Below, piece by piece: positions 25,462-42,702 of a DNA stretch of 42,702 nucleotides (the stretch's first letter is position 1; every line of letters starts with the position of its first letter). This DNA comes from Chitinophagaceae bacterium. Lineage in GTDB: Bacteria; Bacteroidota; Bacteroidia; Chitinophagales; REEL01. Below the pieces are notes generated by a model. That model did no database searches and was not told the origin of the DNA. It was given only the letters and a program-made list of their open reading frames with translations. Position numbers and translations under genes: made by a program. The DNA lies in contig REEL01000128.1 of the NCBI GenBank assembly GCA_007695095.1, positions 1 to 42,702 on the forward strand, written 5' to 3'.

Positions 25462-28400
25462 TTGGAAAATTTACAAAACATAAAACAGCTGCTCGAAAAG
25501 AGTGACCACTGGCAACAAACTGCAAAGCTTTTGACCGGTAGCGACTCGAATGCCTGTTACTTCAAAAATCTGTTTCCCTCAGCATCAGCCTTTTTTACCG
25601 GAATTTTTGTTGAAAAGTTAAACAGGGTGCATGTTTTCGTACTTCCGGAAAAGGAAGAAGCAGCTTATTTTTTCAATGATTTAAAAGCGATAGTTGAAAA
25701 AGATATTTGTTTTTTTCTGCCGGATTCTTTCAAAAGACCCGGGCAATTCCTGCAGGTAGATAAGGAAAATGTTGTGTTGCGAACAGAAACTATTCATAAG
25801 CTTTTAGACAGAAAAGAAAACCAACCACTGTGTCTGGTAACCTATTCAGAAGCATTCTTTGAAAAAACCATACAGCAAAATACCTATTCAAAGTTTAAAA
25901 TTGAAATTGACAAACACAAAACCTTGGACAGTGATCATTTACTGGAGCAACTGGGTAATTTTGGTTTTGAAATAGTTGATTTTGTTTACGAACCCGGACA
26001 GGCCAGCATGCGGGGTGGAATCATCGACATTTTTTCTTATGCAAATGATTACCCCTACCGAATTGAATTATTTGGAGATGAAGTTGAGTCTATAAGAGTT
26101 TTTGATCCCGGCACCCAACTTTCTGTAAAATCACTGCAATCCCTTTCAATAGTTCCGGACATTCAAGAAAAAAGTACGGCGCAGGAAAAAATAGCACTGC
26201 CTGATATTTTCCCAAATGACACTATAGTCTGGTTAAAAGATTGGGATCTGATTAATGAACGTATAAAAAATGCTTTTGAACGTTTTCATGAAGAGGTATT
26301 ATCACAGGAGGGCAAGCACAAAGAAGACAAACATCACTTTTTCAGAAATGCTGTTTTTCACAATTTTGAAAATATAGTTTCCCTGATAAGCAAGCTTGAA
26401 CAATTCAAAATTATAGAGTTTGGAGCTAAGGCACACTTTAATACTTCTCATGAAGTAGACTTTAAAATTGAACCTCAGCCCGGATTTAATAAAAACTTTG
26501 ACTTACTAATTGAAGATTTAAAAAAAAGAAAGTCGGCCGGCTATGAGATCTATCTTTTCTGTGAAAACAAAAGACAAATTGAGCGATTTTATGCCATATT
26601 TGAAGACTTAAAAGCTGATATCATTTTTCATCCTATTCCTTTTGCTATTCACAAGGGCTTCATTCATCATGGCTTAAAAATATGCTGCTATACAGACCAT
26701 GAAATTTTCCAGCGCTTCCACAAACACAATATAAAACGAGGTTTTGACAAAAACAAAGCCTTATTATTAAAGACCATAAAAGAGTTGCAACCGGGAGATT
26801 ATGTAACTCATATTGATCATGGTGTGGGTGTTTTTTCCGGCTTACAAAAAATAGATGTTAACGGCAAAATGCAAGAAGCCGTAAGAATAACTTACAAAGA
26901 CAATGATTTACTTTTTGTAAATATTAACTCCCTGCATAAAATTGCTAAATTCAGCAGCAAGGAAGGGACGAAACCAAAAATAAATAAATTAGGGTCCGAT
27001 GCCTGGGATAAAGTAAAGCGAAAAGCAAAAAAACGCATTCAGGATATCGCTCAGGAATTAATTAAACTTTACGCAAAAAGAAGAGCTTCAAAAGGATATT
27101 CCTTTTCAAAAGACACCTATCTTCAAAATGAACTGGAAGCTAGTTTTATATATGAAGACACCCCTGATCAGGAAAAATCGACAGAGGATATAAAGAAAGA
27201 TATGGAAGCAAGCTATCCAATGGACCGGTTAATTTGCGGAGATGTCGGATTCGGAAAAACTGAACTGGCTGTCAGAGCTGCTTTTAAAGCTGTAACGGAT
27301 AGCAAACAGGTTGCTATATTGGTTCCGACAACCATTTTAAGTATGCAGCACTATAAAACATTTAAAGAGCGATTATCGGAATTTCCCTGTAACATCAGTT
27401 ATTTAAACCGGTTTAGGTCAGCTAAAGAGAAAAGTGAAATTTTAAATAAAGTTAAAGAAGGGCAAGTTGACATATTAATTGGAACGCATGCTATTCTGAG
27501 CAAAAAAATTGATTTCAAAGACCTCGGCTTACTTATTATTGATGAAGAGCAAAAGTTTGGTGTAAAAGCTAAGGAAAGACTTCGTCAACTCAAGTTTCAG
27601 GTAGACACACTTACCTTAACAGCTACCCCTATTCCGAGAACCTTACAATTTTCTCTGATGGGTGCCAGAGATTTGTCAGTGATTCAGACTCCCCCGCCTA
27701 ATCGTCAACCGGTAGAAACACAGTTACATGTTTTCAGTGAAGATGTTATTCGGGATGCAATAACTCATGAGGTTTATCGTGGCGGGCAGGTATTTTTTGT
27801 ACACAATCGGGTAAAAGATATACAAGAAGTTGCTGCAATGCTTAAAAAGCTCTGTCCTGATGTGGATTTTGCCGTTGCACACGGGCAATTAGATGGTGAC
27901 AAACTGGAAAAAGTGATGCTTGACTTTATGGATCATAAATTTGATGTGCTTGTCTCAACAAATATTGTAGAATCCGGTCTGGATATTCCCAATGCAAATA
28001 CGATTATAATAAATAATGCACATTGGTTTGGATTAAGTGATTTGCACCAGTTGAGAGGTCGGGTGGGGCGCTCTAACAGAAAAGCATTTTGTTACTTATT
28101 TTCTCCTCCGGTTTCGGGATTACCCACAGATTCCAGAAAACGCCTACAGACTATTGAACAATACTCTGAATTAGGCAGTGGCATGAATATTTCCATGAGA
28201 GACCTTGACATAAGAGGCGCCGGAAATATACTGGGTGGTGAGCAAAGTGGGTTTATTTCTGAAATTGGTTTTGATATGTATCAAAAAATTCTGGATGAAG
28301 CAATAGACGAACTAAAAGAAAAAGAATTCAAAGAGCTATATGCCGAAGAACTGAAAAATAAGAAAGTTTTTGCAAGAGATTGTCAGATTGATACCGATCT

Positions 28401-42357: not shown

Positions 42358-42702
42358 TTATTTGCTATTTTGATTAGAAGGGTTAAATCTATCCTCTGCC
42401 CAATTAGCGGGGTTGTTTTTTATGTATTGTGCAATACGATAATAGGATGTTTTATCGCGAATAATGTGGTCATGAAATCGGGATTGCCATGCGAAATCAG
42501 GTTCAATAATTCTCGCTTGTATTGCTACGGCCGATTTGAATCCACGAACAATGGATGCCAAATTTTTTGATTGTGGACCAAATTGATTTTTTGCCGGATT
42601 CGATGATGCGGGGAACGCGTGGGATTGTGTAGAGACGCAATGCATTGCGTCTCTACAATGTGATTCACGTTGTTGTTTTTTCCCGCCGTGGTTGGTCTTA
42701 TT
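42358..42702 (-). CDS. REP-associated tyrosine transposase (RAYT), C-terminal part, runs off right edge
   Basis: The frame is open from the right edge to the TAA at 42358 (114 codons visible). The C-terminal pattern NQFGPQSKNLASIVRGFKSAV, WQSRFHDHIIRD and YIKNNPANWAEDRF is that of IS200-like Y1 transposases associated with REP palindromes; the Tyr in AQYIKNNP is the predicted catalytic residue. The HUH motif would lie upstream, outside the window. A perfect 30-bp palindrome at 42628-42657 lies in frame and encodes RDAMHCVST-like residues. An internal ATG at 42645 lies inside the palindrome and is not a good start. Whether the gene is intact cannot be seen. Confidence 0.85.
   Translation of the reverse strand, partial: NKTNHGGKKQQRESHCRDAMHCVSTQSHAFPASSNPAKNQFGPQSKNLASIVRGFKSAVAIQARIIEPDFAWQSRFHDHIIRDKTSYYRIAQYIKNNPANWAEDRFNPSNQNSK
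42628..42657. repeat. Perfect 30-bp REP-like palindrome inside the RAYT frame
   Basis: The left half is TGTAGAGACGCAATG and the right half is its exact reverse complement. This GTAGAGACGC-type palindrome is a dispersed repeat I recognise from Bacteroidota and cyanobacteria. Its length is a multiple of three, so it keeps the transposase frame open. Confidence 0.85.

Follow-up and report, generated by a model that had tools for sequence, protein, structure and literature searches.

REP palindromes inside the genes of RAYT (TnpAREP) transposases have been described before. In the parts of Quentin, Siguier, Chandler and Fichant (2018; PMC6006769) drawn on here, TnpAREP subclass 2.4 is abundant in Cyanobacteria and Bacteroidetes, and its REPs are found inside the TnpAREP genes with the reading frame undisturbed. 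These intragenic REPs generally lie between HuH and Y, where they form a peripheral extension, and double-foot REPs are described too. The portions of Di Nocera (2013; PMC3733652) used here cover GTAG REPs and REPtrons, and also REPs inside genes of other kinds. Set against these accounts, the locus analyzed below is a degraded example of the published phenomenon of intragenic REPs.

The window (the whole stretch of DNA analyzed, 42,702 nucleotides) ends in a minus-strand frame of 114 codons (42361-42702, with its stop codon at 42358-42360) that stays open to the contig edge. Codons 16-25 of this frame, reading C-R-D-A-M-H-C-V-S-T, are exactly a perfect 30-bp palindrome, TGTAGAGACGCAATG/CATTGCGTCTCTACA, with 15-nt arms that are 100% complementary and no loop. 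The features of the region are as follows.

42628 to 42657, minus strand: double-foot REP palindrome GTAGAGACG-CAATGCATTG-CGTCTCTAC, 28 bp plus one extra base pair at the ends, giving the ten in-frame codons CRDAMHCVST.
42361 to 42681, minus strand: C-terminal remnant of a RAYT (TnpAREP), from its NF047646 match, its identity to the paralogue C81b and the conserved columns of alignment A1.
42424 to 42426, minus strand: codon of the putative catalytic tyrosine in Q-Y-I-K-N-N-P, matched to Y115 in 4ER8, the E. coli TnpAREP, by alignment via the paralogue C27.
42682 to 42702, minus strand: a different dispersed repeat, ACCAACCACGGCGGGAAA, occupying the expected start of the HuH-coding half and running to the contig end.

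The palindrome has the properties of a GTAG (double-foot) REP, namely a 5' foot GTAG, a 3' foot CTAC and many copies in the genome. No second copy of this REP was found in the window, where the contig end is only 45 bp away, and the whole 42.7 kb held no second palindrome with arms of at least 12. Genome-wide counts were made by pattern searches for GTAGAGACG-N10-CGTCTCTAC with up to 3 mismatches, which returned 24 sites versus 1 for the reversed control. About 10 of the 24 sites fall in RAYT genes or their remnants, including a degraded one at C173:35391 (C-labels denote contigs or copies of the window's own genome, and L-labels the surveyed loci, C27 being L015, C101 being L047 and C81 being L011). 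None of the remaining sites lies inside a convincing gene; those on C32, C42, C100, C118, C122 and C161 are in short stop-to-stop frames with no recognisable genes and were not counted as intragenic. The cores of the family differ in where they occur: GATTAATC is mostly outside genes, TTGCATGCAA is another kind of core, ACGGCCGT is found only in C27, and within this genome AATGCATT is found only in the window and in C81b. The original prediction of a perfect palindrome lying in frame within a RAYT-like frame is borne out in coordinates, arms and reading phase, and the palindrome is indeed a REP of the type on which RAYTs act. As for the copies of the palindrome that the prediction proposed to map, the exact sequence recurs at just one other place in the genome, the frameshifted paralogue C81b; it is the wider family that is dispersed and frequent in RAYT genes and remnants.

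The frame around the REP resembles the C-terminal half of a RAYT, and the similarity to NF047646 covers just that half (E 8.5e-8, below the curated cut-off; profile positions 68-131 of 146, frame residues 44-98). A Pfam search of the window fragment gave no match. The remnant contains the REP loop, with the REP standing ahead of helix C (SIVRGFKSAV), then WQSRFHDHIIR and the Tyr motif, and it retains the conserved Q, R, I, Y, N, P, W and D columns of alignment A1. The putative catalytic tyrosine is residue 93 of 114 within a Y-I-x-x-N-P motif, and its alignment column, Y211, is invariant. DNA homology to the paralogue C81b begins at 42681 (query base 22) and is 93% identical onward. RAYT homology stops at that same position, and the HuH motif was not found in the window copy. 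The repeat that takes its place, ACCAACCACGGCGGGAAA, has four exact copies in the genome (the window's included) and three near copies; two of its copies follow the RAYT copies of C81, at a distance of ~165 bp on the downstream side. A palindromic repeat, GGTTGGTG...CACCAACCACGGCGGGAAA, was also seen adjoining several RAYT remnants, at 42682-42702 in the window (the contig end) and at C81:25324-25341 and 26784-26801.

Because the HuH motif is absent and another repeat stands at the contig end, we refer to the window copy as a remnant and not as a member gene. As read from its sequence, the gene is probably not intact and the copy is most likely a 5'-truncated RAYT remnant, with some doubt left by the 42681/42682 junction, which an assembly error at the contig-edge repeat could have produced. 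An intact RAYT in the window was considered and is not supported, the 5' part being another repeat. With the HuH half absent, it is unproven that this copy would have been functional when the REP arrived. The earlier description of the frame as a RAYT gene thus fits the C-terminal half, while 42682-42702 belongs to another repeat, leaving a RAYT fragment as far as is visible; the decayed pseudogene that was named as the outcome counting against it is most likely, in part, what is found.

Membership of the RAYT family is settled by fold comparison. An AlphaFold model of the surveyed homologue L057 (own alignment, 32 rows) has core blocks mostly at pLDDT 80-98, with confident beta3 (82-89) and helix C (141-163), and residues 95-133 are below 50 except for a short stretch. 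The REP-encoded residues fall inside this low-confidence segment, so the insertion loop is predicted to be disordered. Foldseek placed the model closest, among solved structures, to 4ER8, in which a RAYT is in complex with a REP hairpin, followed by the IS608 and ISDra2 transposases; phmmer against PDB sequences gave a marginal match to 4ER8 (E 0.52). The variable, often REP-derived, in-frame insertion between beta3 (HuH) and alphaC that characterizes subclass 2.4 is present. From loop architecture and REP type, the window copy would be a remnant of a TnpAREP subclass 2.4 RAYT.

The closest paralogues of the window copy in the same genome are fragments or frameshifted. C81a starts exactly where the palindrome does and is broken by a stop and a frameshift; in C81b, which is also frameshifted, the only REP of the window's core is the internal one; C154 retains the HuH motif and becomes degenerate from the start of helix C onward; C66 and C163 are cut off by the ends of their contigs, the latter open for 161 aa. 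C27 (L015:990-1670, minus strand) is a complete 228-aa RAYT with the HuH motif MPNHLH. Two palindromes of core ACGGCCGT lie in frame in it, the first in the main loop and the second in an N-terminal turn between strands, and both have paired changes in the two arms (GTAC...GTAC; GATACG...CGTATC). A RAYT of another type, C101:3119-3598, forms an ordinary REPtron: no REP lies inside the gene, and a different one, TGTCCGTAGC...GCTACGGACA (TGTCCGTAGCGAGGGCGCTACGGACA), stands on either side of it. A ParE/RelE-like toxin frame (L011:1942-2456, minus strand), with a small gene upstream of it, was noted by eye between the RAYT remnants on C81.

The insertion was then followed across RAYT homologues, in a sample made up of named relatives (one genome scan), a phylum sample (profile searches) and fetched loci. 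The named relatives of this genome's RAYTs point to Bacteroidota as its probable phylum. Palindromes with arms of at least 11 and up to 1 mismatch were counted. At least one was present in the alignable part of 87 of 156 distinct full-length RAYT frames, a share (56%) that is not an unbiased prevalence, since some loci were picked for scoring best against a profile derived from similar genes. The total came to 107 palindromes, whereas 20 codon shuffles gave 2.95 on average and at most 8. The positions of the 99 in the alignable part are strongly concentrated: 91 fall in the loop that follows the HuH strand, 4 in the N-terminal turn and 4 elsewhere. This loop, which links the HuH strand (beta3) to helix C, is a standing insertion site across the subclass. 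Translation goes through the GTAG foot in phase 0 (V) in 48 cases and in phase 1 (R) in 13, with 0 in the remaining phase, which is the one that would read TAG. On the original question of whether the ten codons are an insertion, inserts of this kind lie in frame relative to orthologues without them, as in L064 (198 aa), which lacks the in-frame insert of its near relative L058 (236 aa). L065, L060 and L069 have an identical palindrome within the gene and just outside it. Two further forms of the region were observed. A Daejeonella sp. RAYT (L060:2623-3828) holds three in-frame REPs, and ~10 further copies stand in regular arrays (~50 bp spacing) to its left and right. In L141, L178 and L061, short tandem peptide repeats (ELHSPENAN, NNAVAP, GHGHGH) enlarge the loop that follows the HuH motif, so tandem duplication takes place there as well.

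REP cores tend to follow RAYT phylogeny. On a quick RAYT tree built with the loop columns removed (64 genes, 14 recurrent core types), core type changes 28 times, compared with 46.8 for shuffled labels (minimum 42 of 300). The association is weaker when close relatives are thinned out, with 26 changes versus 35.0 (minimum 29) among 48 genes at <75% identity. The window's clade, marked by NQFGPQSKNL, has mostly xATG-type cores, including AATGCATT in L223, L192 and L259; in L226, L257 and L263 the core is GATGCATC or closely similar to it. Core TTGCATGCAA goes with the ISPKSxSIS clade (L215, L233, L269 and this genome's C163).

Two members of the window's clade in its own genome, C81a and C154, nevertheless carry the TTGCATGCAA core of the other clade. 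In both of these paralogues the whole ten-base core is exchanged, symmetrically, and the adjoining coding sequence is ~91-94% identical. Between C154 and the window, 10/10 core bases differ versus 0/18 arm bases; the flanks differ at 8/85 positions on the right and 2/20 on the left, and lengths next to the REP differ by 3 and 6 nt. Judging from this pattern, ordinary point mutation would be a poor explanation of the swap. Conversion between arm-sharing REPs would do, as would excision followed by re-insertion, or an independent insertion that hit the same point. A more speculative and rather doubtful extension is that the internal REP is a mutable record of specificity, with RAYT clades overwriting the cores in each other's genes (C154, C81a) and so competing by substrate conversion, and with loss of the cognate core accompanying gene death.

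Our preferred reading, to which we give a probability of roughly 0.8, is that the locus is a remnant of a subclass 2.4 RAYT with its own REP type in the usual loop, inserted or converted there and kept by tolerance. RAYTs would nick single-stranded DNA at REP hairpins with GTAG feet and join it there, and REP copies may insert or convert into many places. An insertion that leaves the frame intact and lies in the disordered peripheral loop of a RAYT gene would be harmless and persist, reading frame and stop codons acting as the filter, and may in turn be replaced by another REP core. What the analysis shows is the in-frame REP, its common site, a loop predicted to be disordered, the link between core and clade, and the swapped cores. 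That RAYT catalysis did the inserting we infer from the nuclease activity of E. coli TnpAREP (PMC6006769) together with the core association, and we likewise infer that retention reflects mainly tolerance and physical linkage, not regulatory function. A benefit of the internal REP to the transposase, or autoregulation, is unproven.

Autoregulation would nonetheless account for several of the same facts. If the mRNA or the single-stranded gene formed a hairpin bound by the RAYT protein, the REP could limit expression of its own gene and be retained as useful. The predicted RNA hairpin of the region is strong (-33.3 kcal/mol versus -17.0 in shuffles, z -5.8), internal palindromes are highly prevalent in the subclass, and the C27 copies keep their arm pairing through symmetric changes. 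A folding score is, however, unable to demonstrate regulation, ~44% of the surveyed genes have no strict palindrome (L064 next to L058, for example), many palindrome copies have decayed in place, and the inserts are limited to a tolerant loop. These observations make a regulatory role unlikely.

Selection could instead act on the encoded amino acids, with the peptide serving as a specificity tag or interaction loop. Identical peptides do recur in one clade, the in-frame palindrome and RDAMHCVST peptide of the window being repeated in L223, a full-length RAYT of another genome. Yet the two reading phases in use yield unrelated peptides (VET... or RD...), and the loop is predicted to be disordered and varies widely in length and sequence, so we regard a function of the peptide as highly improbable. 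Chance as the source of the palindrome is ruled out by the same match in L223, by the 24 family sites and by shuffles, in which 0 occurrences of its 22-bp centre are expected. Finally, REPs and Rickettsia palindromic elements are known in many unrelated genes, according to the parts of PMC3733652 used here, and a general selfish in-frame element of that kind might have hit a RAYT by accident. The in-gene sites found in this genome are nevertheless RAYT genes or remnants, a single loop holds nearly all RAYT-gene palindromes across the phylum, and the core tends to fit the RAYT clade; an accidental hit is thus very unlikely.

RAYT genes that contain their own substrate offer a built-in record of the REP that matches each transposase clade, and comparing cores between near-identical genes makes the way in which RAYTs spread REPs testable. 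The general phenomenon is already known, and what this case contributes is mainly quantification and one instance of a core swap: relative to the published account as drawn on here, the additions are the phase bias in numbers, the test of core against clade and the swapped core.

Compared with the systems in these same sources, the locus is closest to TnpAREP subclass 2.4 (PMC6006769), with which it shares the RAYT core, the double-foot GTAG...CTAC REP and the in-frame insertion in the beta3-alphaC loop between HuH and Y; it differs in that the window copy is without the HuH half and the core in two paralogues is that of another RAYT clade. The fold and catalytic layout, as judged from the L057 model, are those of E. 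coli TnpAREP 4ER8, although that protein belongs to subclass 2.2, for which intragenic REPs are not described, and is ~15% identical to the model. As with GTAG REPs and REPtrons (PMC3733652), the palindromes are GTAG-footed, dispersed in the genome and linked to RAYTs, but REPtron REPs flank the RAYT gene, whereas here the REP is inside it. Rickettsia palindromic elements (RPE-4, RPE-6 and RPE-1, cited in PMC3733652) likewise place a palindrome in frame within coding sequence; they sit in many unrelated genes, whereas the host gene here is that of the presumed mobilising enzyme.
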